Source of the DNA: Bradyrhizobium diazoefficiens
Lineage (GTDB): Bacteria > Pseudomonadota > Alphaproteobacteria > Rhizobiales > Xanthobacteraceae
Length of the DNA stretch: 64,000 bases
Direction: 5' to 3'
NCBI RefSeq assembly: GCF_016616235.1
Contig: NZ_CP067100.1
Location: 558,001 to 622,000, forward strand
Below the pieces are notes generated by a model. The model ran no database searches and was not told the DNA's origin. It worked only from the letters and a program-made list of their open reading frames with translations. Below are positions 20,294-35,726 of this stretch, piece by piece (position 1 is the first letter of the stretch; each line of letters begins with the position of its first letter). The translations under genes and the position numbers were made by a program.

Positions 20294-23200
20294 TCAGCCA
20301 TTCAGCGCCTTGCGGATGATCCGCGCCAGATCAGACTTGCGATAAGGCTTCGCCAGCAGCAGCACGCCCGAATCCAGCCGGCCGTGATGGATGATCGCAT
20401 TCTCGGTATAGCCTGATGTGTAGACCACCTTCAGATCGGGACGCGTCTTCATCAGCTCGTCGGCGAGCTGCCGTCCGTTCATCTTGCCGGGCATGATGAC
20501 GTCGGTGAACAGCAGATCGAACGGCTTGCCGGCGGCGACGATCGCGAGCGCCTCGGCGGCGTTCGCCGCCTGCAAAGTGAGGTAACCCAGCGAATGCAGC
20601 TGCGCCAGCACGTAGTCGCGCACCAGCCGGTCGTCCTCGACCACGAGGATGGTCTCGTGTCCGCCCTCGATCGTGGCCGGTGTCACGCCCTCGCCGACCG
20701 CCGTCGGCGTCTTGCCGGGCGGCAGGTACATCTTGATCGTGGTGCCGTGGCCTTCCTCGCTGTAGATCTTGATGTGGCCGGCGGACTGCTTGATGAAGCC
20801 GTAGACCATCGACAGCCCGAGCCCGGTGCCCTTGCCGGGGCCCTTCGAGGTGAAGAAGGGATCGAACACCCTGGCGAGCATGCTTGCGGGAATGCCGGTG
20901 CCGGTGTCGCTCACGGCGATCAGCACATAGTGTCCCGGCCGGACGTCGTTGACGCTGGCATAGACCTCGTCGAGATAGGCGCCGCCCGTCTCCACGATCA
21001 GCTTGCCGCCGCCGGGCATGGCGTCGCGGGCATTGAGCGCGAGGTTGAGCATCGCGGTGGTGAGCTGGTTGGGGTCGACGATCGCGACGCAGGTCTCGTC
21101 CTCGAATACCGATTCGATCTGGATCTGCTCGCCGAGCGTCGGACGCAACAGCTTCGCGGTGTCGATGATCAGCGAGTTGATGTCGATCTCGCGCGGCTGG
21201 AGCGGCTGCTTGCGCGCGAAGGCAAGCAAATGCTGGGTCAGCTCGGCGCCGCGTCCGGCGGCCTCGTCGATCATCTTGGTGATCGCCGCAAGCTCCGGCT
21301 CCTTCTCCACCGCCTCCGCCAGGATCTCGATCGTTCCGGTGATGACGGTGAGGATGTTGTTGAAGTCGTGCGCAACGCCTCCGGTGAGCTGGCCGACTGC
21401 CTCCATCTTCTCGGCGTGACGGATGCGCTCCTCGGCCGCGATCTTGTCGGTCAAGTCGCGGTAGAACACGTTGAACAGCAGGCCGTCGCGGCGCTTCAGC
21501 GCGGTGACGCTCAGCTCGGCCTTGAATTCCTTGCCGTCGCGGCGGCAGCACATGAGCTCGCGGCGGCGATTGAGCGTCTGGCCGCCTCCGGAATCGAGGA
21601 AGCGCGACAGACCTGTCTTGACTCGCTGGCGCTCGCTGGGAGCGACGATCAGGTCGATGGCATTCCTGCCCAGCGCCTCGTCGCGGCGCCAGCCGAACAG
21701 CTCTTCGGCGCGCGAGCTCCAGTTCAGGATGGTGCTGCGATCGTCGGTCTGGACGAAGGCGTCGAGCGCGGTCTCGACGATGTTGCGCGCGAGCTGCTCG
21801 CTTTCGCGCAAGGATTCCTCCGCAAGCCTCGCCTCGGTCATGTCGCGTCCGACGAAGAAGAAGCGGTCGGCCTGATCGGACCAGCTGCCGCGCCAGGACA
21901 GCCAGACTTCGCGCCCATCCTTGTGGAAGCAGCGGGTGTCGCCGAGCTTGGGGCGTCCGCCGCGCCGGAGCGCGCGCATTTCCTCGCGGGACTGATCGAG
22001 ATGGGCGGGATGGATGAAATCGGCGCCGCTGCGGCCGATCATGTCGTCGGGCCGGTAGCCGAGAACGGTCTCGCAGCTCGGGCTGATCTGCGCGATATGG
22101 CCGCGCGAGTCCATGATCATGATCAGATCCTGCGAGGTGTCGAAGAGCTGCCGGCGCTCCTCGATCTGCTGCTGGAGCTGCCGCTCGGCCCGCCGCGCAT
22201 CGGTGAGGCTGCGCGCGCTTCCAGAGGCGCCAATGATCTCGCCCGATGGCCCCCGGATGGGGGAGAGACTGAGTGAGATTTCGACCGGCGTGCCGTCCTT
22301 GCGAAGACGTACCGTCTCGAACCGTTCGATCGGCTCGCCCCGGGCGATCCGCGCCAGATAGACCTTGCCCTGCTCGCGGCGGTCGGGCGGGACGATGATC
22401 GAGGTGGGTTGACCGATCGCCTCGTCCGCCGAATAGCCATAAAGGCGTTCGGCGGCGGGATTCCAGCCCGTGATGATGGCCTCGAGCGTCTGCATGACGA
22501 TCGCATCGTCGGACGATTCGACGGCGGCGCTGAACAGCTGCTCGCGCGCCGCGTGATGGTTTCGTTCGGCCTCGGTGCGGCGGTGCTCCCGGATCTCGCG
22601 CTGGAGCGCGGCGGTTTTCGCGCGCATCTCTTCCACCATCTGGGCAAAGGCCCGCGCCAGCACGCCGGTCTCGCCGCTCGCATCGACGGGTATGTCCGCC
22701 GGCCGTCCGCTGCCGATGGCTTCCACCGCCGCGGTGAGGCGCCCGATCGGACGGGTCAATGAGCGCGCCAGCAGCACTGCGAGCGCTGCCGCGGCGAGCA
22801 CGGCGAGCACGCCGACGAGCAGGGACGCCTTCTGAATCGCGGCCGGCACGCGGCCGAACACGGCGGGAGGAACGGCCACGATAACCCCGATCCATTCCTT
22901 GCCGGCAAGCAGCGCCGGTGCGATCGCCGCGCCGGTCGGCCGGCCCAATCCGTCGGCCGTGAGCTGCGTGGACCCTTCCCGCGTGCCGGCCATGGCCGCA
23001 AAAAATGGAAAGTCATTGCGCCAGTTTGTCGGATGGCCGCGCAAAGTGCCGAATTCTTGCGCGGGATCTGGATGGACGAGATAGTCGCCGCGCGAATTCA
23101 CGACGTAAATCGCTCCTCCCGAGTTCGTCGCCGCGCGGATGCGGTCGAGGGCAGGGCGCATATCGATATTGGCGATGATGATGCCGAACGGCTTGCCGTC

Positions 23201-23890
23201 CGGCGTGAACAGGGGCGTTGCGACCCGCAGGGTCGGAATGTGCGCGGTCGTGGTCCCGCCCTGGCGGGTCGCGAGATCGAGCGGCGAAACGTAGATCTCG
23301 CCGGGCGCCAGCCGGATGGTTTCCTGGAAGTAGGCTCGCTCGCTCTTCCGCTCCAGCTCGCCGTCGGGGACGATCCGTGCCGCTCCATTCGGGCCCGAGC
23401 GGTCGACGCGGACCAGCTCGCGCTGGTCGTCGTCGAGGCCGATGATGCGAAACTGCCCGTAGCTGGGCTTGGCCTCGATCTCGGCCGCGAGCCGCGTCGC
23501 GATGCGCTCGCGCCAGGTCTGCTCCGAAACGCGGTCGGCTGCGTCAATTCCGCCGCCGACGTGGGCGCGGATCAGGCCGTTGATCGCCGCGGCGGAGCGA
23601 TAGCCGATCAGGTCGCCACGGACGCCGGAAACGTAGGATTCCAGATTGGTCGCCAGCAGGCGCGACTGGGCTTCGACTCGCTCCAGCACGCGCGGAATGA
23701 CCGCCTGCGTGATGTTGCGATAGCCGAGCCAGCCGACCGCGGCCACGGTCACCGTCACCAGCAGGATCATCGCGATGGCCAGCCGCGTTGCGAGCGTCAT
23801 GCGGATATTCGCTGGGCTTTCGGTATGACCGTGCTTGTTGTTGCCTGCAGCAGAGGAGGCAACCTCGTCATCGGTTGCCGGAGCTGACAT
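20294..23890 (-). CDS. Hybrid sensor histidine kinase (Cache-HAMP-PAS3-HisKA-HATPase-REC)
   Basis: The 1198-residue membrane sensor starts with a TM helix at about 35-55. A periplasmic double-Cache-like region follows (FRIIGLDDDQRELVRVDRSG, LVHPDPAQEFGTL). A second TM helix lies at about 350-375, then HAMP. Three PAS domains follow (SSDDAIVMQTLEAIITGWNP; TSQDLIMIMDSRGHIAQISP; ALDAFVQTDDRSTILNWSSR). The H-box has His841, the N-box is LALNARDA, the G-boxes are DTGTG and GTGLGLS, and the C-terminal receiver has Asp1130. It starts inside the end of the upstream receiver gene (23-bp overlap), so the two form an operon. It probably passes phosphate to that receiver. Confidence 0.9.
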   Translation of the reverse strand: MSAPATDDEVASSAAGNNKHGHTESPANIRMTLATRLAIAMILLVTVTVAAVGWLGYRNITQAVIPRVLERVEAQSRLLATNLESYVSGVRGDLIGYRSAAAINGLIRAHVGGGIDAADRVSEQTWRERIATRLAAEIEAKPSYGQFRIIGLDDDQRELVRVDRSGPNGAARIVPDGELERKSERAYFQETIRLAPGEIYVSPLDLATRQGGTTTAHIPTLRVATPLFTPDGKPFGIIIANIDMRPALDRIRAATNSGGAIYVVNSRGDYLVHPDPAQEFGTLRGHPTNWRNDFPFFAAMAGTREGSTQLTADGLGRPTGAAIAPALLAGKEWIGVIVAVPPAVFGRVPAAIQKASLLVGVLAVLAAAALAVLLARSLTRPIGRLTAAVEAIGSGRPADIPVDASGETGVLARAFAQMVEEMRAKTAALQREIREHRRTEAERNHHAAREQLFSAAVESSDDAIVMQTLEAIITGWNPAAERLYGYSADEAIGQPTSIIVPPDRREQGKVYLARIARGEPIERFETVRLRKDGTPVEISLSLSPIRGPSGEIIGASGSARSLTDARRAERQLQQQIEERRQLFDTSQDLIMIMDSRGHIAQISPSCETVLGYRPDDMIGRSGADFIHPAHLDQSREEMRALRRGGRPKLGDTRCFHKDGREVWLSWRGSWSDQADRFFFVGRDMTEARLAEESLRESEQLARNIVETALDAFVQTDDRSTILNWSSRAEELFGWRRDEALGRNAIDLIVAPSERQRVKTGLSRFLDSGGGQTLNRRRELMCCRRDGKEFKAELSVTALKRRDGLLFNVFYRDLTDKIAAEERIRHAEKMEAVGQLTGGVAHDFNNILTVITGTIEILAEAVEKEPELAAITKMIDEAAGRGAELTQHLLAFARKQPLQPREIDINSLIIDTAKLLRPTLGEQIQIESVFEDETCVAIVDPNQLTTAMLNLALNARDAMPGGGKLIVETGGAYLDEVYASVNDVRPGHYVLIAVSDTGTGIPASMLARVFDPFFTSKGPGKGTGLGLSMVYGFIKQSAGHIKIYSEEGHGTTIKMYLPPGKTPTAVGEGVTPATIEGGHETILVVEDDRLVRDYVLAQLHSLGYLTLQAANAAEALAIVAAGKPFDLLFTDVIMPGKMNGRQLADELMKTRPDLKVVYTSGYTENAIIHHGRLDSGVLLLAKPYRKSDLARIIRKALNG

Positions 23891-24296
23891 CGGACCCCTC
23901 CGGCTCCCGCGCCCTCAGGCAGCCATTGACCGCGGAGAGCAGGGCGTCTGGCCGGAACGGCTTCTGCAGGCTCGCCACCGCGCCGAGCTTGGTCGCCATC
24001 TTCAGGAAATCCGGCTCCGCATAGGCGTCCGGCGTGATCGAGCGGCCGGAAATGACGATGATCGGCATGGCCGGCTGCAGCATCCGGATGCGGCGCATCG
24101 TCTCCAGCCCGTCCATGCCGGGCATGAAGATGTCGAGGAACAGCAGGTCGAACTGGCCGGCCTCGAACAACGCAAGTCCCTGGTGGCCATCGCCGGCGAT
24201 GGTGACGCGATGCCCGGCCCTCTCCAGGAGCAGCCGGATCGTGATCTGTACGGCCGGGTCGTCATCCACGATCAGGATGTTGGCCACGTCTGACAT
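23868..24296 (-). CDS. Single-domain response regulator paired with the hybrid kinase
   Basis: The 142-residue receiver has DDD at 11-13, Asp55 (LLFLDIFMPGMDG), Ser in VISGRS and Lys in LQKPFRP. The insert TPDAYAEPDFLKMATKLGA matches the receiver at 12596-13078, marking a paralogous pair. The gene overlaps the kinase start by 23 bp, so translation is coupled. It has no output domain, which suggests a phosphorelay intermediate or protein-protein output. Confidence 0.9.
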   Translation of the reverse strand: MSDVANILIVDDDPAVQITIRLLLERAGHRVTIAGDGHQGLALFEAGQFDLLFLDIFMPGMDGLETMRRIRMLQPAMPIIVISGRSITPDAYAEPDFLKMATKLGAVASLQKPFRPDALLSAVNGCLRAREPEGSDVSSGNR

Positions 24297-24582
24297 CCTC
24301 CGGGGCGATGGGACATTCCGCCGCCCCCCAAATCAAACCATCAAATACGAAATTGTTGCGCGGATTCCGTTCAGCCTGCAAGCACTTCGCGACGCTGCGG
24401 CGGTCATCGGGCGCACCTCGGCCCGGCGTGGTCATTATGCATGCTTCCGTGCACAAGGTCCCGCCCGAACGGGGCTTGGAACCATCCTGCGCCAGCCATG
24501 GGACTGGGCGCCGAACCTGGTCCCAGAGATATCGGCGCGCATGCCCGAACATTTGTTCTAAAGTTCGAAGAGTTATCGCAGC

Positions 24583-25299
24583 CTAGTCGGTCAGGTATTC
24601 CGGGTGATGGCTTCGGATATTATCCAGCTCGCTCAGCGTGCCTGACAGATGCTTGCGCAGGTGCTGTTGCGCGGCATCGGCATCGCCGGCCTCGATGGCG
24701 CGCGCGATCAGCCTGTGATGGCGCACGATGTTCTGGGCTTTGCCGGGCGAAGGCAAATGCAGCCGGCGCAGCCGGTCGATATGCCCGCTGCGGCTGCGGA
24801 CGAGTGTCCACAAATCCTGCTTGCCGGCCGCGGCGTAGAGCTGCCCGTGAAAATCATTGTCGCCGGCCATGAACGCCTCGAACTCACCGGCCTTGGCGAA
24901 TTGCTGTTGCAGCGCGATGGCGTGATCGAGGCGGATCACCAGCGCAGCGTCGGCGCTCGCGGCGAGGAGCCGGACGATCTCCAGCTCGAGTGCCTGACGC
25001 AGGAAATGCGCCTGCTGGGCGCGGCCGATGTCGATCCGGCTGACCACGGTCGCGTGCTGCGGGAAGACGTCGACCAGGCCTTCTTCCTCGAGCCGCATCA
25101 GCGCATCGCGCACCGGCGTCGAGCTGACGCCGAACTGGCCGGCAAGCTCGGCGCGCGACAGCGGCGCGCCCGGCGGCAGTTCGAGCGCGATGATCGCGTT
25201 GCGAAGGCGCTCGAACACCTGCGGCGCGGCCTGTCGGGCGCGATCGAGCCTTGATGCCGTCTTTGCGGGCGCGCGTGGCGCGGAGGCGACTACTTCCAT
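24583..25299 (-). CDS. GntR/FCD-family transcriptional regulator
   Basis: Residues 25-90 form a GntR winged helix (LELPPGAPLSRAELAGQFGV, SSTPVRDALMRLEEEGLVDV). Residues 100-225 form an FCD ligand domain with metal-site His residues (DNDFHGQLYAAAG; VRHHRLIARAIEAGD). The ATG at 25299 is chosen because the longer frame would start at a GTG inside the operator palindrome. It diverges from the ABC transporter/dehydratase operon and most likely represses it until an organic acid binds. Confidence 0.9.
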   Translation of the reverse strand: MEVVASAPRAPAKTASRLDRARQAAPQVFERLRNAIIALELPPGAPLSRAELAGQFGVSSTPVRDALMRLEEEGLVDVFPQHATVVSRIDIGRAQQAHFLRQALELEIVRLLAASADAALVIRLDHAIALQQQFAKAGEFEAFMAGDNDFHGQLYAAAGKQDLWTLVRSRSGHIDRLRRLHLPSPGKAQNIVRHHRLIARAIEAGDADAAQQHLRKHLSGTLSELDNIRSHHPEYLTD

Positions 25300-25318
25300 A
25301 TCGGGTCCCGCTTGCCTT

Positions 25319-25344
25319 TGATGCACTAATATATTAGTGCATCA
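25319..25344. promoter_or_regulatory. Perfect 26-bp operator palindrome
   Basis: The half-site TGATGCACTAATA is followed directly by its exact reverse complement, with no mismatch. It lies 20 bp before the GntR ATG and 47 bp before the transporter ATG, and its A+T centre may overlap both -10 regions. FCD-type GntR proteins bind such palindromes, so this is very likely the GntR operator, controlling both directions. Confidence 0.8.
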
Positions 25345-25390
25345 CCAGGGTCAACGCAGCTCGGCGCTAACCCGGAGGAAACACACAACA

Positions 25391-26410
25391 ATGATTAAGC
25401 ATCTTCGCAGCAAGCTCGCGGCTGGCATCCTGATTGCCGCGACCGCGCTCTCGGCATCGACCGCGCTGGCGCAGCAGAAATCCGAGGTCGCGCTGTCGCG
25501 CCAGCCCGGCATTTTCTACATGCCGAGCCACATCATGGAAAAGCTGAAGCTGATCGAGAAGCATGCGGCAGCGCTCGGCGTTCCCGGCGTCACCACCAAA
25601 TGGGTCACCTTTTCCGGCGGCGGCGCGCAGACCGATGCGCTGCTCGCCGGCGGCGTCGACATCCTCAACACCGGCACCGGCAATCTGCTGCTGCTGTGGG
25701 ACCGCACCCGCGGCGGCGTGAAGGGCATCGTCGCGACCTCGGCGCAGCCGATGACGCTGATCAGCCGCGACGCCAACATCAAGTCCATTAAGGATTTCGC
25801 CCCCGGCGACAAGATCGCGGTGCCGACGGTGAAGGTCTCGACCCAGGCGATCGTGCTCCAGATCGCCGCCGCCGAGGCGTTCGGCGCCGACCAATGGTCC
25901 AAGCTCGACGCCAACACCGTGCAGCTCGGCCATCCTGATGCCTATGCGGCGCTGTCCAATCCCAAGCACGAGGTGCACACCCACCTCTCGATTCCGCCGT
26001 TCACGTTCCTCGAATTGAAGAACGTGCCGGGCGCGCATGTCGTGCTGAACTCGCCCGACGTGATGGGCGGTCCGCTGAGCCAGGCGCAGTTCTTCACCAC
26101 GACCAAATTCGCCGACGCCAATCCAAAAATCATCCAGGCGGTGCGCGATGCCACCAGGGAAGCGCAGGACCTGATCCGCAGCGACACCAAACAGGCGGTC
26201 GAGATCTACAAGGAGATCACCGCCGACAAGACCACCGTGGAAGATCTGCTCGATCTTCTCAAGCAGCCCGGCATGATGGAGTGGAATCTCGAGCCTCAGG
26301 GTACGATGAAATTCGCCGCGCATTTGTACAAGACCGGCACGCTGAAGACCCAGCCCAAGGCCTGGACCGACTATTATCTCCCCGTTGCGCACGACTTGAA
26401 GGGCAGCTGA
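25391..26410 (+). CDS. ABC transporter substrate-binding protein (NMT1/SsuA-like)
   Basis: The ATG at 25391 follows GGAGG by 12 bases and opens with a signal peptide (LRSKLAAGILIAATALSAST, cleavage near ALAQ). The 339-residue protein is an NMT1/SsuA-type two-lobed binding protein: VTTKWVTFSGGGAQTDALLA, VDILNTGTGNLLLLWDRTRG and KIAVPTVKVSTQAIVLQIAA match this fold. The family takes up sulfonates, nitrate, pyrimidine precursors or aromatic/organic acids. The linked dehydratase points to a hydroxy-acid. Its TGA overlaps the ATPase ATG. Confidence 0.85.
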   Translation: MIKHLRSKLAAGILIAATALSASTALAQQKSEVALSRQPGIFYMPSHIMEKLKLIEKHAAALGVPGVTTKWVTFSGGGAQTDALLAGGVDILNTGTGNLLLLWDRTRGGVKGIVATSAQPMTLISRDANIKSIKDFAPGDKIAVPTVKVSTQAIVLQIAAAEAFGADQWSKLDANTVQLGHPDAYAALSNPKHEVHTHLSIPPFTFLELKNVPGAHVVLNSPDVMGGPLSQAQFFTTTKFADANPKIIQAVRDATREAQDLIRSDTKQAVEIYKEITADKTTVEDLLDLLKQPGMMEWNLEPQGTMKFAAHLYKTGTLKTQPKAWTDYYLPVAHDLKGS

Positions 26411-27171
26411 TGGCGCTGCTCGACGTCAACTCCGTGACGCTGCGCTACAAGACCTCGAGCGCAGTCGTCACCGCGACCGAGAGGGTGAGCTTCACCGTCG
26501 ACAAGTCCGACCGCTTCGTGCTGCTCGGACCGTCCGGCTGCGGCAAGTCCACTTTGCTCAAGGCCGTCGGCGGCTACATGAGCCCGAGCGAAGGCCGCAT
26601 GAGCATCAACGATCGCGAGATCAACGGGCCCGGCGCCGACCGCATGATGATCTTCCAGGAGTTCGACCAGCTGCTGCCTTGGAAGAGCGTGCTCGCCAAC
26701 GTCATGTTCCCGCTGCTCACCGCGCGAAAACTGTCGCGCAGGGACGCCGAGGCAAAGGCGCGGGCCTATATCGAGAAGGTCGGCCTCACCCGCGTCGTCG
26801 ATGCCTATCCGCATACGCTATCCGGCGGCATGAAGCAGCGCGTTGCGATTGCGCGCGGCATGGCGATGGAGCCGGACATTTTGCTCATGGACGAGCCGTT
26901 CGCCGCGCTCGATGCGCTGACGCGCAGGACCTGCCAGGACGAGCTGCTCCAGCTCTGGAGCGAGACCAGGTTCACGGTGCTGTTCGTGACGCATTCGATT
27001 GCGGAGGCGATCCGCATCGGCAACCGCATCCTGCTGCTGTCGCCGCATCCGGGCCGGGTCAAGGCCGAGGTGGTCGACGTCGACAAGGTCTCGAACGAAG
27101 ACGGCAGCGCCGGCCGGCTGGAGAAGGAGATCCACGATCTCCTGTTCGCCGGCGAAGCAACAGCGCATTGA
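26410..27171 (+). CDS. ABC transporter ATP-binding protein (SsuB/TauB-like)
   Basis: The ATG at 26410 overlaps the binding-protein stop by one base. The 253-residue ATPase has Walker A GPSGCGKST near residue 39, Q-loop MIFQEFDQLLPW, signature LSGGMKQR, Walker B ILLMDEPFAALD and switch His in FVTHS. It energises uptake by the permease encoded 11 bp downstream. The FAALDALTR sequence is typical of the nitrate/sulfonate/taurine class. Confidence 0.92.
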   Translation: MALLDVNSVTLRYKTSSAVVTATERVSFTVDKSDRFVLLGPSGCGKSTLLKAVGGYMSPSEGRMSINDREINGPGADRMMIFQEFDQLLPWKSVLANVMFPLLTARKLSRRDAEAKARAYIEKVGLTRVVDAYPHTLSGGMKQRVAIARGMAMEPDILLMDEPFAALDALTRRTCQDELLQLWSETRFTVLFVTHSIAEAIRIGNRILLLSPHPGRVKAEVVDVDKVSNEDGSAGRLEKEIHDLLFAGEATAH

Positions 27172-27182
27172 GGGAACAGCTG

Positions 27183-28043
27183 ATGGGCGAAGCGAGAATA
27201 TTGCTGCGTGACGCGCCGGTCGCCGCCACCGGGGCAGGCGAGGTCGAGCGCAAGCTGAGCGTGCTCGAGCTGCTCTGGAACGATGGCTTTGTCCGCAAGA
27301 GCGTCATCATCCTGTTCCTGGCCGCGGTCTGGGAAGCCTACGGCGTCACTCTCGACAACCCGCTGCTGTTTCCGACGCTGCACGACACCATCGTGACGCT
27401 GGTCGACCGCGTCAGGGACGGCACGATCCCGATGCGGGCATGGACCTCGCTGAAGGTGTTGTTCATGGGCTATTCGGCCGGGATCGTGCTGGCCGCGATC
27501 TTCACGATCCTCGCGATCTCCACCCGCATCGGCACCGACTTCCTCGAAACCGTCACCGCGATGTTCAACCCGCTGCCAGCGATCGCGCTGCTGCCGCTGG
27601 CCCTGATCTGGTTTGGGCTCGGCAACGGCAGCCTCGTCTTCGTGCTGATCCATTCGGTGCTATGGCCGGTCGCGCTCAACACCCATTCCGGCTTCAAGAG
27701 CGTCTCGAACACGCTGCGCATGGTCGGGCGCAACTACGGCCTGCGCGGGCTGCCTTACGTGGCCAAGATCCTCATCCCTGCCGCGTTCGGCTCGATCCTC
27801 ACCGGCCTCAAGATCGGTTGGGCCTTTGCATGGCGCACGCTGATCGCGGCCGAGCTGGTGTTCGGCGTCTCCTCGGGGCAGGGTGGGCTCGGCTGGTTCA
27901 TCTTCGAGAACCGCAATCTGCTCGACATACCCGCGGTGTTCGCAGGCCTCTTGACCGTGATCATCATCGGGCTCTTTGTCGAGAACCTGATCTTCCGCGC
28001 CATTGAGCGGAACACGGTCCAGAAATGGGGCACCCAATCATGA
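27183..28043 (+). CDS. ABC transporter permease (SsuC/TauC-like)
   Basis: The 286-residue inner-membrane protein has about six TM helices. The cytoplasmic coupling motif lies in GLRGLPYVAKILIPAAFGSI and LTGLKIGWAFAWRTLIAAE, as in the BPD_transp_1 family. The ATG at 27183 is chosen because it follows a purine-rich GGGAACAG and lies 11 bp after the ATPase stop. Its own TGA overlaps the dehydratase ATG (ATGA), so the transporter and enzyme are translationally coupled. Confidence 0.9.
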   Translation: MGEARILLRDAPVAATGAGEVERKLSVLELLWNDGFVRKSVIILFLAAVWEAYGVTLDNPLLFPTLHDTIVTLVDRVRDGTIPMRAWTSLKVLFMGYSAGIVLAAIFTILAISTRIGTDFLETVTAMFNPLPAIALLPLALIWFGLGNGSLVFVLIHSVLWPVALNTHSGFKSVSNTLRMVGRNYGLRGLPYVAKILIPAAFGSILTGLKIGWAFAWRTLIAAELVFGVSSGQGGLGWFIFENRNLLDIPAVFAGLLTVIIIGLFVENLIFRAIERNTVQKWGTQS

Positions 28044-29776
28044 CCAAGAAGAAAACACCCGACCAGCTCCGCAGCACGCGCTGGTTCGCGCCCGACGATC
28101 TCCGCTCGTTCGGCCACCGCTCCCGCACCATGCAGATGGGTTATGCGCCGGAGGAGTGGAAGGACCGCCCCATGATCGCGATCCTGAACACATGGTCGGA
28201 CGCTCAGCCCTGCCACATGCACTTCAAGTCGCGCGTCGACGACGTCAAGCGCGGCGTCCTGATGGCGGGCGGCCTGCCGCTGGAGCTGCCGGCGCTGTCG
28301 CTGTCGGAATCGCTGCTCAAGCCCACCACCATGCTTTACCGCAACCTGCTGGCGATGGACGCCGAGGAGCTGCTGCGCAGCCATCCCGTCGACGGCGTGG
28401 TGCTGATGGGTGGCTGCGACAAGACGACGCCGGCACTGCTGTTAGGGGCGACCTCGATGAACATCCCGGCGATCTATCTGCCGGCAGGTCCGATGCTGCG
28501 CGGCAACTGGAAGGGCAAGACACTCGGCTCCGGCTCCGACGGCTGGAAATATTGGGACGAGCGCCGCGCCGGAAAAATCTCCGACAAGGACTGGCTCGAT
28601 ATCGAAGCGGGCATCGCTCGGAGCTACGGCACCTGCATGACGATGGGCACGGCTTCGACCATGACCGCGATCGCCGAGGCGATCGGCATGACGCTGCCGG
28701 GCGCCTCCTCGATTCCCGCCGCCGATGCCAACCACATCCGCATGGCCTCCGAATGCGGCCGCCGCATCGTCGAGATGGTGTGGGAAGACTTGACGCCGAA
28801 AACGATCCAGACCCGCAAGGCATTCGAGAACGCAATAGCGGTGGCGATGGCGATGGGCTGCTCGACCAACGCCATCGTCCATCTCATCGCGCAGGCCCGC
28901 CGCGCCGGCCAGGACATCGGCCTCGACGATTTCGAGGTCGCCAGCCGCAAGGTCCCGGTCATCGCCAACGTCCGGCCGAGCGGCGATACTTACCTCATGG
29001 AAGACTTCTTCTATGCCGGCGGCTTGCCAGCGCTGATGGGTCAGATCAAGCCGCATCTGCATCTCGACTGCGTCACCGTGACCGGCAAGACGCTGGGCGA
29101 AAATATCGACGGCGCTGAAGTTCACAATGCCGACGTGATCCGCTCGGTCGACAATCCCATCTACAAGGAGGGCGCGCTCGCGGTGCTCAAGGGCAATCTC
29201 GCGCCCGACGGCTGCGTTATCAAGCCAAGCGCCTGCGCGCCGCGCTTCCTCAAGCACACGGGGCCGGCGCTGGTGTTCGACGATTATCCGTCGATGAAGA
29301 AGGCGGTCGACGATCCCGATTTGGACGTCAGCGAGGACCACATCCTGATCCTGCGCAATGCCGGGCCGCAAGGCGGACCGGGCATGCCGGAATGGGGCAT
29401 GTTGCCGATCCCGACAAAACTCGTGAAGCAGGGCGTGCGCGACATGGTGCGCATCTCGGATGCGCGCATGAGCGGCACCAGCTATGGCGCCTGCATTCTG
29501 CATGTCGCGCCCGAGTCCTACATCGGCGGCCCGCTGGCGCTGGTGCGGAACGGCGATCGGATCACGCTCGATGTCGCAGCGCGCACCATCAATCTCGATG
29601 TCCCCGACGCCGAGCTCGATAAGCGCCGCGCCGCCTGGAAGCAGCCTGAGCCCCGCTTCGAGCGCGGCTATGGCTGGATGTTCACCAGGCACATCAAGCA
29701 GGCCAATGACGGCTGCGACTTCGATTTTCTCGAGACCGATTTCGGCGCGCCGGTCGGCGAGCCGTCCATCTACTAA
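28040..29776 (+). CDS. IlvD/EDD-family sugar-acid dehydratase
   Basis: The 578-residue enzyme dehydrates a 2,3-dihydroxy acid to a 2-keto-3-deoxy acid using a [2Fe-2S] cluster and Mg2+. Cluster cysteines are at 58 (SDAQPCHMHF), 126 (MGGCDKTTPA) and 199 (YGTCMTMGTA). This spacing is one residue off the Rhizobium L-arabinonate dehydratase as I recall it. The catalytic Ser is in DARMSGTSYGACILHVAPE. The length and GSDGWKYWDERRAG region favour a pentonate/hexonate dehydratase over biosynthetic IlvD. Coupling to an ABC importer makes the role catabolic. Confidence 0.88.
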   Translation: MTKKKTPDQLRSTRWFAPDDLRSFGHRSRTMQMGYAPEEWKDRPMIAILNTWSDAQPCHMHFKSRVDDVKRGVLMAGGLPLELPALSLSESLLKPTTMLYRNLLAMDAEELLRSHPVDGVVLMGGCDKTTPALLLGATSMNIPAIYLPAGPMLRGNWKGKTLGSGSDGWKYWDERRAGKISDKDWLDIEAGIARSYGTCMTMGTASTMTAIAEAIGMTLPGASSIPAADANHIRMASECGRRIVEMVWEDLTPKTIQTRKAFENAIAVAMAMGCSTNAIVHLIAQARRAGQDIGLDDFEVASRKVPVIANVRPSGDTYLMEDFFYAGGLPALMGQIKPHLHLDCVTVTGKTLGENIDGAEVHNADVIRSVDNPIYKEGALAVLKGNLAPDGCVIKPSACAPRFLKHTGPALVFDDYPSMKKAVDDPDLDVSEDHILILRNAGPQGGPGMPEWGMLPIPTKLVKQGVRDMVRISDARMSGTSYGACILHVAPESYIGGPLALVRNGDRITLDVAARTINLDVPDAELDKRRAAWKQPEPRFERGYGWMFTRHIKQANDGCDFDFLETDFGAPVGEPSIY

Positions 29777-29780
29777 CACC

Positions 29781-29907
29781 GTCGTTCCGGGGCGATGCGA
29801 CGGGACAGCGAAGCGCGGCCCGGAGCATCGAACCCGGAACCCATTTCACCGCCGTGCGTGTGGCCCGATGGATTTCCGGGTTCGCGCTGCGCGTGCCCCG
29901 GAATGAC
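29781..29907. repeat. Intergenic palindromic repeat (GTCGTTCCGGGGC type)
   Basis: The outer arms GTCGTTCCGGGGC and GCCCCGGAATGAC pair with one mismatch. Inner segments (TCGAACCCGGAA... and GGATTTCCGGGTTCGCG) form a second nested stem. The element lies between the dehydratase and the RraA-like gene. Similar elements recur in Bradyrhizobium intergenic DNA (recalled). It may stabilise or end the upstream transcript. Confidence 0.6.
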
Positions 29908-29925
29908 GAACAGAGAGAGTATGAG

Positions 29926-30645
29926 ATGACCAAACTCAGCGAAGCCAGCCGCAACAAGCTCAAATCCGTCTCCACCGCCACCGTGGCCACTGCGCTGTTC
30001 AAGCGCGGCCTGCGCATCCAGATGATCCAGGATGTGCACCCGCTCGGCCCCGACCAGCCGACCATGGTGGGCGAAGCCTTCACCTTGCGCTACATGCCGG
30101 CGCGCGAGGATCTCAACACCATCGATGTCTTCAGGGATCGCTCGCATCCGCAGCGCAAGGCGGTCGAGGACTGCCCTCCGGGCGCCGTGCTGGTGATGGA
30201 CAGCCGCAAGGACGCGCGCGCGGCCTCGGCCGGTGCGATCCTGGTGACGCGGTTGATGAAGCGCGGCGTCGCCGGCGTCGTCACCGACGGCGGCTTTCGC
30301 GATTCCGCCGAGATCGCCAAGCTCGGTATTCCCGCCTACCACCATCGCCCCTCGGCGCCGACCAATCTGACGCTGCACCAGGCGATCGAGATCAACGTGC
30401 CGATCGGCTGCGGCGATGCGCCGGTGTTTCCCGGCGACGTCGTCCTCGGCGACGCCGACGGCGTCATCGTCATCCCCGCGCATCTCGCCGGCGAGATCGC
30501 AAGCGAGACCTTCGAGATGACCGCGTTCGAGGACTTCGTCACCGAGGAGGTCGGCAAGGGCCGCGGCATCTTCGGTCTCTATCCCGCCACCGATCCGCAG
30601 ACGCTCACCGATTTTGCGGAATGGCGGAAGAAGAACGGAAGGTAG
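29926..30645 (+). CDS. RraA-fold protein, possible aldolase/decarboxylase
   Basis: The 239-residue protein has the RraA/HMG-aldolase fold: ATVATALFKRGLRIQMIQDV near the start, GAVLVMDSRKDARAASAGAI, and the metal-site motif GVVTDGGFRDSAEIAKLGIP, then GDVVLGDADGVIVIPAHLA. Members are either RNase E regulators or class II pyruvate aldolases/oxaloacetate decarboxylases. Given the preceding sugar-acid dehydratase, cleavage of its 2-keto-3-deoxy product is plausible (inference). The ATG at 29926 starts the conserved part. A 149-bp repeat-containing gap separates it from the dehydratase. Confidence 0.8.
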   Translation: MTKLSEASRNKLKSVSTATVATALFKRGLRIQMIQDVHPLGPDQPTMVGEAFTLRYMPAREDLNTIDVFRDRSHPQRKAVEDCPPGAVLVMDSRKDARAASAGAILVTRLMKRGVAGVVTDGGFRDSAEIAKLGIPAYHHRPSAPTNLTLHQAIEINVPIGCGDAPVFPGDVVLGDADGVIVIPAHLAGEIASETFEMTAFEDFVTEEVGKGRGIFGLYPATDPQTLTDFAEWRKKNGR

Positions 30646-30662
30646 CGCAGCATCGCGCTGCC

Positions 30663-30748
30663 GTAGCCCGGATGGCGCGCAGCGCGATCCGGGACCGGTC
30701 TTGCCGGCTGCACCAATCCCGTATTACGCGGCGCTCCATCCGGGCTGC
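30663..30748. repeat. Intergenic palindrome (GTAGCCCGGATGG type)
   Basis: The arms GTAGCCCGGATGG and CCATCCGGGCTGC pair with one mismatch. The element lies between the RraA-like gene (+) and the convergent oligopeptidase gene, where it could act as a terminator. Confidence 0.6.
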
Positions 30749-30752
30749 GAAG

Positions 30753-32879
30753 CTACACCTCCGCTTCCGCCATCCCCGCCGCCCACAGCGCAAACGCATA
30801 CACGATCGCCACTTCGTCGAGCCGGTCGAACCGTCCCGAGGCGCCGCCATGGCCGGCCCCCATGTTGGTGCGCAAGAGGACCGGGCCGCCGCCGCTCATG
30901 GTCGCACGCAGGCGCGCGATCCATTTGGCGGGCTCCCAGTAGGTGACGCGCGGATCGGTCAAGCCGCCCATCGCCAGAAGCGCCGGATAGTCTTTTGCGG
31001 CAACGTTGTCGTAAGGCGAATACGAGAGAATGGTGCGGAAATCCTTCTCGCTCTCGATCGGATTGCCCCATTCGGGCCATTCCGGCGGCGTCAGCGGCAG
31101 GGTGTCGTCGAGCATGGTGTTGAGCACGTCGACGAACGGAACTTCGGCGACGATGCCTGCGAACAGCTCGCCGGCGCGGTTCGCGACCGCGCCCATCAGC
31201 ATGCCGCCCGCCGAGCCGCCATGGCCGATGATGCGTTTTGCGCTGGTGTATTTCGCATCAATCAGCGCGCGGGCGCTGGCCGCAAAATCGTCGAACGAAT
31301 TCGTCTTCTTCTCGCGCTTGCCGTCGAGATACCAGCCCCAGCCCTTGTCGGCGCCGCCGCGGATATGAGCGATGGCGTAGACAAAACCGCGATCGACCAG
31401 CGACAGGCGGTTGGCGCTGAACGAGGCCGGCATCGCCATGCCGTAGGAACCGTAACCGTAGAGCAGCAGCGGTGCCGAGCCGTCGAGCGTCAGGCCGCGG
31501 CGATACAGGATCGAGACCGGCACCTCGGCGCCGTCATGCGATGTCGCCATGATGCGGGTGGTGACGTAGTCGGCGACGTTGTGGCCCGAGGGTATCTCCT
31601 GGCGCTTGCGCAGGGCGCGCGTGCGCTTGACCATGTCGTAGTCATAGACTTCCGACGGCGTCGTCATCGACGAATAGGAGAAGCGCAGATTGGTCGTGTC
31701 GAACTCGTAGGAGCCCATGGTGTCGAGCGAATAGGCGGCCTCGTCGAAGGCGATGGCGTGTTCCTCGTTCGAGGCGAGGTCGCGGATCACGATCGACGGC
31801 AGCGCGTTGGCGCGCTCCAGCCGCACCAGATGGCCGGCATAGAGATCGAGGTCGATGATGTAGATGCCAGGGCGATACGGAATCAAATCGCGCCAGTTCT
31901 TGCGCTCGGGTGAGGAGAGCGGCGCGGTAACGATCTTGAAGTCGATGGCGTCGTCGGCATTGGTGAGAATGAACAGCTCGTCGCCGCGATCGGCCAGCGA
32001 ATATTGCACGCCGTCCTCGCGCGCCGCGACCAGGCGCGGCGGCGCTTCCGGATTGGCGAGATCGATCAGCCGCTGCTCCGAGGTCTCGTGATCGCCGCCG
32101 GCGATCACGCAGAAACGCCCGCTGGTGCTCTCGTGCAGATGGGTGAACCAGCCGGCATCCTGCTCCTCATAGACCAGCGTGTCCTCGGTCTGCCTGGTGC
32201 CGAGCCTGTGCCGCCACACCTGCATCGGCCGGTGATTGTCGTCGAGCTTCACATAGAAGAAGGACTTGGCATCCTTGCTCCAGACCATGCCGCCGTCGGT
32301 CTCCTCGACGACGTCGTCGAGATCCGCACCCGTCGCCCAGTCGCGCACGCGGATCGTGAAATATTCCGAGCCCTTGGTGTCGGCGCTCCAGGCCTGCAGC
32401 GTGTGATCGTCCGAGTGCCGGCTGCCGCCGAATTTGAAATATGTGTGGCCCTTTGCCAGTGCGTCGCCGTCGAGCACGATATGCTCGTTGCCGCCGTCGC
32501 GCGGCATGCGGCCGAACAACTCATGCTGCCCGCCTTCGCGAAACCTGCGGAAATAGGCGAACGGCCCGTCCGGCGACGGCACGCTGGAATCGTCCTCCTT
32601 GATCCGGGAGCGCATCTCGCGCACCAGCGTCTTCTGCAGCGCAGAGGTATGGCCGAGCAGGCTCTCGGTGTAGGCGTTCTCTTCATCGAGATATTTGCGA
32701 ATGTCGGGATCGAGCACCTTGGGGTCGCGCAGCACCTCCTGCCATTTCGCGTCCTTCAGCCAGGCATAATCGTCGGTCACGGTGATCCCGTGCCGCGTGA
32801 AGGAATGCGGCCGGCGCGGGGCGACGGGAGGCTGGGAAGGTGTTTTGGCTTGTGTCACGCGGTCCTCGTCATCTCTCAT
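30753..32879 (-). CDS. Prolyl oligopeptidase-family peptidase (oligopeptidase B-like)
   Basis: The 708-residue S9A serine peptidase has an N-terminal beta-propeller (about 30-420, DDYAWLKD and repeated strand motifs) that gates access to peptides. A C-terminal alpha/beta hydrolase follows, with nucleophile Ser in GHGGSAGGMLMG, acidic residue region DPRVTYWEPAKW, and catalytic His in NMGAGHGGASGR. Oligopeptidase B cleaves after basic residues in small peptides in the cytoplasm. No signal peptide is seen. ATG 32879 or GTG 32858 could be the start. Confidence 0.9.
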   Translation of the reverse strand: MRDDEDRVTQAKTPSQPPVAPRRPHSFTRHGITVTDDYAWLKDAKWQEVLRDPKVLDPDIRKYLDEENAYTESLLGHTSALQKTLVREMRSRIKEDDSSVPSPDGPFAYFRRFREGGQHELFGRMPRDGGNEHIVLDGDALAKGHTYFKFGGSRHSDDHTLQAWSADTKGSEYFTIRVRDWATGADLDDVVEETDGGMVWSKDAKSFFYVKLDDNHRPMQVWRHRLGTRQTEDTLVYEEQDAGWFTHLHESTSGRFCVIAGGDHETSEQRLIDLANPEAPPRLVAAREDGVQYSLADRGDELFILTNADDAIDFKIVTAPLSSPERKNWRDLIPYRPGIYIIDLDLYAGHLVRLERANALPSIVIRDLASNEEHAIAFDEAAYSLDTMGSYEFDTTNLRFSYSSMTTPSEVYDYDMVKRTRALRKRQEIPSGHNVADYVTTRIMATSHDGAEVPVSILYRRGLTLDGSAPLLLYGYGSYGMAMPASFSANRLSLVDRGFVYAIAHIRGGADKGWGWYLDGKREKKTNSFDDFAASARALIDAKYTSAKRIIGHGGSAGGMLMGAVANRAGELFAGIVAEVPFVDVLNTMLDDTLPLTPPEWPEWGNPIESEKDFRTILSYSPYDNVAAKDYPALLAMGGLTDPRVTYWEPAKWIARLRATMSGGGPVLLRTNMGAGHGGASGRFDRLDEVAIVYAFALWAAGMAEAEV

Positions 32880-33189: not shown

Positions 33190-34626
33190 ATGCTGTTCAA
33201 CTCCTACCCGTTCATCCTGCTGTTCCTCCCCGTGGTGCTGGGCGGCTATTTCTGGCTGGGGCGGCGCAGCAGTCTGGCGCCGGTGATCTGGCTGGCGCTG
33301 GCTTCGCTCGCCTTCTATGCCATTGGCAGCTGGCAGTTCGTGGCCCTGCTGTTGCTATCGATTGCGTTCAATTACGGCGTCGGCCATCTGCTCGTCGTGG
33401 CAAAGCTCCGCCCGTCACAGCGCAAGGCAGCGCTGGCGCTCGGCGTCGCCGGTGATCTCCTCGTGCTCGGCATCCTCAAATATGCCGGCTTCGCTACCGA
33501 GAACATCAATGCGCTGTTCGGCACGCATTTTGCGGTCCACATCCTGCTGCCGGTCGGCATCTCCTTCTACACCTTCACCCAGATCGCGTTCCTGGTGGAC
33601 GCGTATCGTGGCCAGGTCGCGGCCTATGGGCTGCCGCATTACGCGCTGTTCGTAACCTACTTCCCGCATCTGATCGCGGGGCCGATCCTCCACCACAAGG
33701 ACATGATCCCGCAATTCGAGCGGGAGGAGTCAAAACACCCGGACGCGCATCTGATCCTGTGCGGACTCATCATCTTCGCCATCGGCCTGTTCAAGAAGAC
33801 CTGCCTTGCCGACGGCATCCAGCCGCTGGTCGCGCTCGCTTTCGAGGCGCGATCGCCCAGCTTCGACCAGGCCTGGCTTGGTGCGCTCGCCTATACGTTT
33901 CAGCTCTATTTCGACTTCTCCGGCTATTCGGACATGGCGATCGGGATCTCGCTGATGTTCGGCATCTTCCTGCCCGTCAACTTCAACTCGCCCTACAAGG
34001 CCACCAGCATCGTCGAGTTCTGGCGCCGCTGGCATATGACGCTATCGCAGTTCCTGCGCGACTATCTCTACATCCCGCTCGGGGGCAACCGCCACGGCCG
34101 CGTGCTGCGCTACGTCAACCTGCTGATCACGATGCTGCTCGGCGGGCTCTGGCACGGGGCGGCCTGGACGTTCGTCATTTGGGGCGCGCTGCATGGCGCC
34201 TATCTCTGTATCAATCACGCGTTCAATGCGTCGGTGCCGAGCGTCCCGCCGCTGCTCGCACGACCGGTTCGCGCTGCCGGTGCGTTGCTGACCTTCCTTG
34301 CCGTCGTCGTCGCCTGGGTGTTCTTCCGCGCCGAGAGCGTTGCCTGGGCGCTACGCGTTCTTCACGCGATGGCTGATCCCACAAATATCGTGTTCGGTCG
34401 CGAGGAGATCGCGGCGCTGGTGCTGGTCGCAATTTATGCCGCGCTGGTGTGGCTGGCGCCGAACACGCAACAGATCATGGGATACGATCACGGCAACCGC
34501 CGGGTCGGTGAGGCGTTAAGGGCAGGGCGCATGCGGCCGCTGATCCTCTATGGCGCGTCACTGGTGCTCGCGTTCGGCATTCTGGGCATCCAGAGCCATA
34601 GCGAATTCATCTATTTCCGGTTCTGA
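33190..34626 (+). CDS. MBOAT-family O-acyltransferase (AlgI-like)
   Basis: The 478-residue polytopic membrane protein begins MLFNSYPFILLFLPVVLGGY, the usual AlgI/PatA start, which fixes ATG 33190. MBOAT hallmarks are IVEFWRRWHMTLSQFLRDYL, YIPLGGNRHG and the active-site His in LLGGLWHGAAWTFVIWG. Such proteins pass an acetyl group across the membrane to decorate exopolysaccharides. The next gene overlaps its stop and encodes an SGNH-like partner, so the two probably act as one acetylation unit. The polysaccharide is unknown. Confidence 0.9.
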   Translation: MLFNSYPFILLFLPVVLGGYFWLGRRSSLAPVIWLALASLAFYAIGSWQFVALLLLSIAFNYGVGHLLVVAKLRPSQRKAALALGVAGDLLVLGILKYAGFATENINALFGTHFAVHILLPVGISFYTFTQIAFLVDAYRGQVAAYGLPHYALFVTYFPHLIAGPILHHKDMIPQFEREESKHPDAHLILCGLIIFAIGLFKKTCLADGIQPLVALAFEARSPSFDQAWLGALAYTFQLYFDFSGYSDMAIGISLMFGIFLPVNFNSPYKATSIVEFWRRWHMTLSQFLRDYLYIPLGGNRHGRVLRYVNLLITMLLGGLWHGAAWTFVIWGALHGAYLCINHAFNASVPSVPPLLARPVRAAGALLTFLAVVVAWVFFRAESVAWALRVLHAMADPTNIVFGREEIAALVLVAIYAALVWLAPNTQQIMGYDHGNRRVGEALRAGRMRPLILYGASLVLAFGILGIQSHSEFIYFRF

Positions 34627-35726
34627 TGCGCGGCACGTTCACCAGCGTGAATCGTCTATTGCTCGCCAGCATCGCATGCGTGCTGGGCGCGGCCGCGCTC
34701 ACCTACGCCGTCGATCCCCTGCAACTGTTTCGTCCCTCGCGCCTGGCCTTCTATTCCGACGACACCCGCGTGCAGAACGCCGGGTTGATCCGCAGCCAGT
34801 CGTTCGACACCGCCTTCATGGGCACCTCGCTCGCGATCCATTTCCGCCAGAGCGACATCGACCGCGCGCTTGGCGTCCATTCGCTCAAGCTGGCCATGAC
34901 CGGCTCCAACTCACGCCAGCAGGCCTTCGTGCTGGAGCAGGCCATCGACCGCGGCGCAAGGCGCGTGATCTGGGAGATGGACGATTTTATCTTCGTCGAT
35001 GCCGCCGACATCGAGACCGATCCCTATCTCTCCGTCGATCTCTATCGCGGAACCGCCAAGGGCATCGCGTCCTACCTGTTCAGCACGGCGATGGCGAAGG
35101 AGTCGCTCTTTGCAGTGCTGCGGTCGGTCCCGCCGCTGCGGCGGCCGCTGGCGCGAGCGACGCCCTATCTACCCGTCAAGTTCGCGCTCGCCGATGTCGA
35201 TGACATCCACGCGCTGCCGCGAAACTTCGACGTCGCGCGCAGCTACAACGCGGCGAAGACGCTGGCCTCGTTCGCCTACATCACCGCGCCCTCGCGCAGC
35301 CGTTTTCTCGGCGAAGGCTATGGTTACGACGCCATGGTCCGGCATTTCGAGCAGGACGCCGTTGGTCTGATCACGCGCCATCCGGACGTGACCTTCGACA
35401 TCTACTTCCCGCCCTATTCGATCCTGCAATTCGTCGCGATGCGCGATGCTTCGCCGGAGACGCTGAAGATCGTCACCGATCTCACCGCGATCATTGCGCA
35501 GCGCCTGACGCAGTTCCCCAATGTGCGCCTCCACGATTTTCGTGCGATCAAGGCGGTGACGCACGACCTCAACAACTACGGCGACGTCATCCATCATTCG
35601 CCGGTGGTGGACGCGATGGTGCTGAACTGGCTGGGGAGCGGGGAGTATCGCGTCGATGGGAAGAAGCCGACCGCGTCACTGGACGAACTGAAGGCGCAGG
35701 TCGAGGCGTATCGGCTGCAGAAATAG
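34626..35726 (+). CDS. SGNH-like periplasmic partner of the MBOAT protein
   Basis: The ATG at 34626 overlaps the MBOAT stop by one base, so the pair is translationally coupled. The 366-residue protein has an N-terminal TM anchor (LLLASIACVLGAAALTYAVD). It then has an SGNH-type block with Ser68 (AFMGTSLAIHF) and a C-terminal D320-V-I-H323 matching the DxxH of block V. This layout fits AlgJ/DltD-like periplasmic enzymes that receive acyl groups from MBOAT proteins. The catalytic role is inferred from motif and pairing. Overall similarity to known members looks low. Confidence 0.72.
   Translation: MRGTFTSVNRLLLASIACVLGAAALTYAVDPLQLFRPSRLAFYSDDTRVQNAGLIRSQSFDTAFMGTSLAIHFRQSDIDRALGVHSLKLAMTGSNSRQQAFVLEQAIDRGARRVIWEMDDFIFVDAADIETDPYLSVDLYRGTAKGIASYLFSTAMAKESLFAVLRSVPPLRRPLARATPYLPVKFALADVDDIHALPRNFDVARSYNAAKTLASFAYITAPSRSRFLGEGYGYDAMVRHFEQDAVGLITRHPDVTFDIYFPPYSILQFVAMRDASPETLKIVTDLTAIIAQRLTQFPNVRLHDFRAIKAVTHDLNNYGDVIHHSPVVDAMVLNWLGSGEYRVDGKKPTASLDELKAQVEAYRLQK

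Follow-up and report, generated by a model that had tools for sequence, protein, structure and literature searches.

A candidate sugar-acid unit of Bradyrhizobium diazoefficiens pairing an IlvD/EDD dehydratase with an RraA-fold protein

The window analyzed here is a stretch of 64,000 nucleotides from Bradyrhizobium diazoefficiens (contig NZ_CP067100.1, positions 558,001 to 622,000), whose genome is a single 7.67-Mb contig. It carries a gene for a GntR/FCD-type regulator and, divergent from it, an operon encoding an ABC importer, a dehydratase of the IlvD/EDD family and a protein of the RraA fold (Table 1). Conserved among relatives, this catabolic unit is real, belongs to a known kind and is unusual in two respects: an RraA-fold protein stands in the slot of the lyase, and the dehydratase belongs to a clade devoid of the signature C-terminal histidine. 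The unit is self-regulated and probably serves the uptake and breakdown of a sugar acid, in which the RraA-fold protein is more likely a metabolic enzyme than a ribonuclease regulator; with a confidence just short of even, we propose that this protein eliminates water from a 2-keto-3-deoxy acid to give alpha-ketoglutaric semialdehyde. All the components named by the initial annotation (the regulator, a perfect 26-bp palindrome between it and the operon, the ABC genes, the dehydratase and the RraA-fold gene) were found at the locus, including the ATGA overlap through which the ABC genes run into the dehydratase gene.

A dehydratase of the sugar-acid type

The dehydratase contains the ILVD_EDD N- and C-terminal domains (355.8 and 223.6 bits) and scores 1091.3 bits against NF009559, the NCBIfam model for L-arabinonate dehydratase, well above the cut-off of 882. 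Its nearest PDB entries are 8ej0 (PuDHT, 612 bits) and 9evv (L-arabinonate dehydratase, 582 bits). In contrast, it reaches 464 bits for a cut-off of 618 with the IlvD model TIGR00110, and the same genome carries a separate IlvD (L004), which scores 685 bits. A branched-chain IlvD role is ruled out by this score and by the separate enzyme; the evidence thus supports a sugar-acid rather than a branched-chain type, as the initial annotation had supposed. The residues Cys58, Cys126, Asp127, Lys128, and Cys199 are invariant among 17 aligned dehydratases, C58, C126, and C199 being the three [2Fe-2S] cysteines. By its domains, these invariant residues and a score above the equivalog cut-off, the enzyme is therefore close to L-arabinonate dehydratase (NF009559/PRK13016; 5J83, 9EVV) and to PuDHT (8EJ0). 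NCBI indeed names it L-arabinonate dehydratase, so that the pathway, initially described as uncharacterized, belongs to a known class.

The enzyme differs from L-arabinonate dehydratase and PuDHT at its C-terminus, GEPSIY, which ends in tyrosine and not in histidine. According to PMC11316719, the C-terminal histidine reaches the neighboring active site and is called fully conserved in sugar-acid dehydratases. With phenylalanine in its place, activities (in umol per min per mg) fell from 9.1 to 1.0 on L-arabinonate and from 4.2 to 0.09 on D-gluconate, and less strongly, from 15.2 to 6.4, on D-fuconate (PMC11316719). In PuDHT, the same change brought the relative activity from 100 to 0.5 with D-gluconate and from 0.65 to 4.0 with D-glycerate (PMC9314677). 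For comparison with the window, we took the 80 best loci among at least 593 relatives retrieved with the dehydratase alignment; picked by closeness to the window dehydratase, they are biased towards its clade, and their genes were called by a simple GC3 script whose starts or strands may be wrong. The nearest named ones are Bradyrhizobium (dehydratase identity up to 96%). The last residue is tyrosine in 48 of them, phenylalanine in 29 and leucine, asparagine or histidine in one each; 79 of the 80 thus lack the histidine. The clade has residues of its own as well (D173, R175, C274, K420, and a two-residue Phe-Gly insertion), as seen by comparing 55 RraA-linked with 21 His-ending, RraA-free sequences. 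Taken together, the Tyr/Phe terminus and the clade-specific residues suggest a shifted substrate range rather than a named substrate. Because these dehydratases mostly end in Tyr or Phe and not in His, the acid may not be L-arabinonate. The replacement would suit an acid that needs no contact of a C5 or C6 hydroxyl with the histidine, for example a pentonate (L-arabinonate or an isomer), a shorter acid, or a 6-deoxyhexonate.

That RraA should strictly accompany a non-His C-terminus was tested and does not hold, with exceptions both ways. In the loci of a class search, where the stretch around many is 1.5 kb per side, His-ending rows never had RraA within the stretch covered. Rows ending in Tyr or Phe without RraA include L013, L024, L036, L078, L082-L086, and L088-L090; a Skermanella plasmid (L069) has a His-ending dehydratase with RraA, and L149 combines a His-ending dehydratase, the regulator and an operator with one mismatch without RraA. 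Mapped on a 113-row FastTree tree, the label has to change at least five times.

Some relatives show other neighborhoods. In L066, L067, and L142, the dehydratase gene has no RraA and is preceded by genes for a Gfo/Idh oxidoreductase and an amidohydrolase, which may reflect a different route drawing on this clade of dehydratases. Two Cupriavidus loci (L123 and L128) have a 2-hydroxyacid dehydrogenase after the dehydratase in the place of RraA, the L123 contig ending 2 kb further on. Finally, a record entitled Mycobacterium sp. KBS0706 (L115) contains a copy of the unit of alphaproteobacterial type (dehydratase 79%); its title may be wrong.

The dehydratase-RraA pair

The pair formed by the dehydratase and the RraA-fold protein is the conserved core of the unit, the transporter being swapped or missing. 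Within a search reach of 4.5 kb, 54 of the 80 loci have RraA downstream in the same orientation, 44 of them at most 167 bp away. Four further loci (one Aquabacter, three Ancylobacter) carry in its place, directly after the dehydratase, an HpcH protein. Two of these four proteins were scanned (L131 and L136): they score 330 and 309 bits with HpaI (cut-off 369) and 292 and 280 bits with PRK10558/GarL, 2-dehydro-3-deoxyglucarate aldolase (cut-off 393), and HpaI- and GarL-type aldolases are the closest PDB entries to that of L136. Because the gene order is kept and members of an aldolase family can take its place, the RraA-fold protein most likely acts on a 2-keto-3-deoxy acid. The genomic context thus supports well that its substrate would be the dehydratase product, in keeping with the place of next enzyme that the initial annotation gave it.

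Other observations count against so tight a pairing. Neither RraA nor HpaI is found downstream in 22 of the 80 loci, five of them with less than 3 kb of contig remaining; in two of the 22 an RraA lies elsewhere, 57% identical and on the opposite strand in L146, 34% identical and upstream in L128. L117 and the Skermanella plasmid locus L069 harbor RraA and an HpcH protein together, so the displacement is not strict. RraA is also found apart from this dehydratase. Twenty such loci were read and are mixed: one has an MR/MLE-RraA pair (L224), another RraA with TRAP and aldehyde dehydrogenase genes (L222), and most show no clear link, the gene caller having missed RraA in L216, L220, L225, L226, and L227. 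Plasmid relatives of RraA lie near MR/MLE and mannonate-dehydratase-like genes, for which the specific models score below cut-off. The common factor of these neighborhoods is likely a 2-keto-3-deoxy acid. In favor of the pairing, pairwise identities of the dehydratases and of the RraA proteins are correlated (r = 0.83; 55 loci, 1,485 pairs), although shared descent by itself would produce the same. L156 and L068 have a second RraA (44-45% identity to that of the window), which stands with a mannonate-dehydratase-like gene upstream of the same ABC-dehydratase-RraA set.

Relatives of the RraA-fold protein are annotated as ribonuclease activity regulator RraA, and the gene might accordingly be a true RNase regulator, a non-catalytic member of the operon. 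This is very improbable: the window protein scores 349 bits with NF006093 (PRK08245), above the cut-off of 208, but below cut-off with the RNase E regulator models PRK09372 (52 vs 136 bits) and TIGR01935 (45 vs 124 bits); moreover, the gene goes along with sugar-acid dehydratases, its place can be taken by a gene of an aldolase family, and a likely member of its subfamily, FlDet, is an enzyme. Score and context thus rule out the regulator role.

The best structural matches of an AlphaFold model of the protein (pLDDT 79, from a 12-row alignment) are 5x15 and 3noj, the latter an HMG/CHA aldolase. Asp102 belongs, with the Arg123/Asp124 pair, to the residues expected of an HMG/CHA aldolase. The window protein shares with 3noj the RraA fold and the Arg123/Asp124 pair, which aligns with its invariant R125 and D126. 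It differs in that Asp102 is replaced (by Ala104 here and by Ser in the other 11 aligned proteins), in its operon context, and in scores below the family cut-offs (PRK09262, 83.8 vs 179 bits; TIGR02798, 65.6 vs 304.5 bits).

Proposed fate of the 2-keto-3-deoxy acid

By analogy, we slightly favor elimination to alpha-ketoglutaric semialdehyde over cleavage to pyruvate, since FlDet, the sole characterized likely member of the subfamily that was found, performs it. FlDet, from Flavobacterium sp. UMI-01, is a 237-aa RraA-like KDGR dehydratase/decarboxylase, which removes water and CO2 to produce alpha-ketoglutaric semialdehyde (PMC8563752). It resembles the window protein (239 aa) in its length, in the 2-keto-3-deoxy acid substrate proposed for the latter and in its N-terminus: at the best offset, and for the published residues only, 11 of 19 are identical in the window RraA and 14 of 19 in that of Microvirga lupini. 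The median over 55 proteins is 10 of 19, vs 5 of 19 for a 37%-identical paralogue from the same genome. In contrast, FlDet belongs to an alginate pathway and uses a diacid, and the accessible text of PMC8563752 mentions no IlvD/EDD neighbor. A Microvirga plasmid and four of the 16 Bradyrhizobium loci have an aldehyde dehydrogenase gene after RraA. The two enzymes scanned, those of L099 and L065, have alpha-ketoglutaric semialdehyde dehydrogenase as their best match (520 and 515 bits), and the remaining ones are about 77% identical to that of Microvirga. The order in L055 (dehydratase, DHDPS-type protein, aldehyde dehydrogenase, RraA) is neutral in this respect, its DHDPS-type protein being nearest to 5-dehydro-4-deoxyglucarate dehydratase (135 vs 278 bits).

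Several points speak against this proposal. The comparison with FlDet is limited to 19 N-terminal residues, and KDGR, a six-carbon diacid, was the sole substrate of FlDet among five keto acids tried (PMC8563752). The aldehyde dehydrogenases of L099 and L065 fall below the specific cut-off of 770 bits, and those beside RraA in L053 and L055 have no good model (for L053, which was scanned, the best is HpaE, 100 vs 638 bits). In Sinorhizobium and Rhizobium, RraA is followed by a 2-hydroxyacid dehydrogenase, which elimination leaves unexplained; the best match of the Sinorhizobium protein is glyoxylate reductase (174 vs 455 bits). The displacement by HpaI/GarL-family proteins favors retro-aldol cleavage at least equally, these enzymes being aldolases. 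Finally, proteomics of B. diazoefficiens grown on arabinose neither names nor excludes this dehydratase in the part of the paper at hand; the portion of its arabinose table covered has one dehydratase, described as similar to D-galactarate dehydratase, which could not be linked to this gene (PMC5996035).

Hence, the same sugar-acid unit could employ the RraA-fold protein as a class II retro-aldolase, which would convert the 2-keto-3-deoxy acid into pyruvate and an aldehyde in a Dahms-like manner. We regard this as quite possible, though short of probable. It would account for the aldolase-family protein found directly after the dehydratase in Aquabacter and Ancylobacter, and the fold of HMG/CHA aldolase, with its essential Arg123 and the adjacent Asp124, is shared with the window protein. 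The 2-hydroxyacid dehydrogenase of Sinorhizobium and Rhizobium could process an oxo-acid product, and arabinose catabolism in B. diazoefficiens is described as proceeding via pyruvate and glycolaldehyde (PMC5996035). However, the replacement of the aspartate equivalent to Asp102, the FlDet precedent and the neighbors resembling ketoglutaric-semialdehyde dehydrogenase all speak against cleavage; the HMG/CHA aldolase scores are far below cut-off, and the HpaI/GarL proteins likewise remain under their specific cut-offs. An aldarate, that is a six-carbon diacid, is an unlikely substrate. The dehydratase would then form KDGR, and the RraA-fold protein would turn it into alpha-ketoglutaric semialdehyde as FlDet does. 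The narrow specificity of FlDet (PMC8563752) agrees with this, as do the use of KDGR by GarL, whose family is close to the displacing proteins, the PRK10558 scores of two of these proteins, and the clade-specific R175 and K420 of the dehydratase. In contrast, the two proteins match HpaI better, and both the gluconolactonase-type gene of some relatives and the L-arabinonate dehydratase match suit aldonates. We know of no IlvD/EDD aldarate dehydratase.

Whichever its chemistry, the unit resembles the Weimberg and Dahms pathways, in which a lactone, an aldonate and a 2-keto-3-deoxy acid are followed by dehydration or aldol cleavage (PMC6336799, PMC9795676). As far as these sources extend, the third step relies there on enzymes of the DHDPS/NAL type or on other clusters without RraA, whereas an RraA-fold protein fills the slot here; a sugar dehydrogenase gene was not seen in this unit. 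A description of the operon was not found among the papers listed from the open-licence PMC literature on RraA with sugar acids, where the relevant enzyme papers were that on FlDet and one on an HMG/CHA aldolase.

Regulation, transport and locus organization

The palindrome, TGATGCACTAATATATTAGTGCATCA, is the longest of 10 perfect palindromes of at least 16 bp in the window, the runner-up having 20 bp; the number expected with a length of 26 bp or more is about 0.003. Since the longer GTG start of the regulator gene, at 25326, sits inside it, the ATG at 25299 is the likely start. The operator core, CACTAATNNATTAGTG, was surveyed in the 44 of the 80 loci that have a related regulator (at least 44% identity) and a readable upstream stretch. 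It is exact in 22 and has at most one mismatch in 32, two mismatches in three and three or four in six; in the remaining three (L121, L124, and L150) no site was found. A match with at most one mismatch arose in none of 8,800 mononucleotide shuffles, and the 7.67-Mb genome has only one site at that level. Sites upstream of related regulators span Alpha- and Betaproteobacteria, with exact copies also in other genera than Bradyrhizobium, among them Microvirga, Inquilinus, Achromobacter, Polaromonas, and Aquabacter, where different transporters follow. The palindrome thus looks like a dedicated local switch, to which, judging from the conservation of the site, the GntR protein would bind. The earlier suggestion of a dedicated unit under local regulation gains support from these data.

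The importer had been assigned to the NMT1/SsuA type. The solute-binding protein (SBP) is only weakly so, with 79 bits for SsuA_fam (cut-off 163.5) and 19.6 bits for NMT1_2 (gathering threshold 24.7), and the associations with sulfonates and nitrate are a weak guide because TctC/Bug or TRAP proteins occupy the same slot elsewhere. Foldseek gives SsuA as the best match of a low-confidence model (pLDDT 68, TM about 0.35), from which no ligand can be read. Among the 80 loci, 16 have the same SBP-ATPase-permease set, 27 a Bug/TctC-type protein (at a loose criterion of at least 35% identity), one a TRAP transporter and 36 none within reach; the transporter label (81 rows) has to change at least 22 times on the FastTree tree of 113 dehydratases. 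The importer is present in nine of the 16 Bradyrhizobium loci. The seven without it (L092, L094, L096, L098, L100, L101, and L102) keep the dehydratase-RraA pair, and six of them lack the regulator too. L102 retains the regulator and the operator, and about 110 bp ahead of its dehydratase gene a 62-bp stretch still matches the end of the permease; about 20 bp of that end are left in L100 and L101. With such remnants, the losses look like deletions. In L046 and L048, an SBP of this family immediately precedes the dehydratase, and the stretch has no match to the ATPase or the permease.

An SMP-30/gluconolactonase-type gene is found near the pair in 13 of the 80 loci, including nine of the 16 Bradyrhizobium, where it either separates the dehydratase from RraA or follows RraA; in some, the leader resembles the twin-arginine type. 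Together with the aldehyde dehydrogenase genes of relatives, it makes a lactone-forming sugar acid the likely substrate, and both enzymes plausibly supply missing steps in those relatives. The fullest set, in L104 and L110 (Bradyrhizobium), comprises GntR, SBP, ATPase, permease, dehydratase, gluconolactonase-type protein, RraA, and aldehyde dehydrogenase. The window unit is devoid of the gluconolactonase-type gene; elsewhere in the genome lie relatives with 60% identity for the lactonase type, in a partial match, and 75% for the aldehyde dehydrogenase.

We propose the following sequence of events. The GntR/FCD protein would act as a repressor, silencing its own gene and the divergent operon from the palindrome until the sugar acid, or its keto-deoxy product, binds to it. 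The importer would then take up an aldonic acid, in some relatives perhaps after hydrolysis of the lactone by the SMP-30/gluconolactonase-type enzyme. As its family suggests, the dehydratase would remove water to form the 2-keto-3-deoxy acid, on which, in view of the conserved gene order and of the displacement, the RraA-fold enzyme would act, preferably by elimination of water to alpha-ketoglutaric semialdehyde. Oxidation to alpha-ketoglutarate would finally fall to an aldehyde dehydrogenase, whose gene some relatives have next to RraA and of which this genome has a 75% identical relative elsewhere.

Table 1. Features of the unit (window positions)
Feature	Position	Strand	Evidence
GntR/FCD-type regulator	24583..25299	-	Pfam FCD 84.4 bits, GntR 63.1 bits, both above gathering; ATG start
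Proposed operator, perfect 26-bp palindrome, core CACTAATATATTAGTG	25319..25344		Kept in relatives; single genomic site
ABC SBP, weakly NMT1/SsuA-like	25391..26410	+	SsuA_fam and NMT1_2 scores below cut-offs
ABC importer ATP-binding protein	26410..27171	+	ABC_tran 105 bits
ABC importer permease	27183..28043	+	BPD_transp_1 53.5 bits
IlvD/EDD sugar-acid dehydratase, 578 aa, C-terminal Tyr	28040..29776	+	NCBIfam NF009559; nearest PDB 8ej0, 9evv
Dehydratase-RraA gap with dispersed repeat copy	29777..29925		39 genomic matches including itself
RraA-fold protein, PRK08245 subfamily, proposed 2-keto-3-deoxy-acid lyase	29926..30645	+	NF006093; model nearest 5x15, 3noj

Pfam gathering thresholds are exceeded by FCD, GntR, ABC_tran, BPD_transp_1, both ILVD_EDD domains, and RraA-like. 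The SBP stop and the ATPase start overlap as TGATG, and the RraA-fold gene begins 149 bp past the dehydratase stop, the gap holding the dispersed repeat. Promoter and terminator scans of 25200-31000 gave no result above chance, and no Rfam family was found within 24000-31000. Immediately upstream of the unit, a large PAS hybrid histidine kinase lies beside a single-domain response regulator (20294-24296, minus strand). Further on are an MBOAT O-acyltransferase and, after it, a 366-aa protein that matches no Pfam family (33190-35726), as well as a class V aminotransferase (35810-36997, minus strand), nearest to BhcA, the L-aspartate-glyoxylate aminotransferase, at half of the cut-off (327 vs 650 bits).

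More generally, we lean towards the view that PRK08245-type RraA proteins form a fold-distinct class of 2-keto-3-deoxy-sugar-acid lyases, paired with IlvD/EDD dehydratases and elsewhere with enolase-superfamily or mannonate-type ones, and that their association here with a clade whose histidine is replaced, mostly by Tyr or Phe, defines a distinct sugar-acid route. The natural replacement of this histidine across a whole dehydratase clade bears on the engineering of substrate range. If the view is correct, a widespread protein labelled as a regulator of RNA decay would gain a metabolic function, and this would suggest how sugar acids could serve rhizobia and soil betaproteobacteria in the absence of the textbook lyases of the third step.

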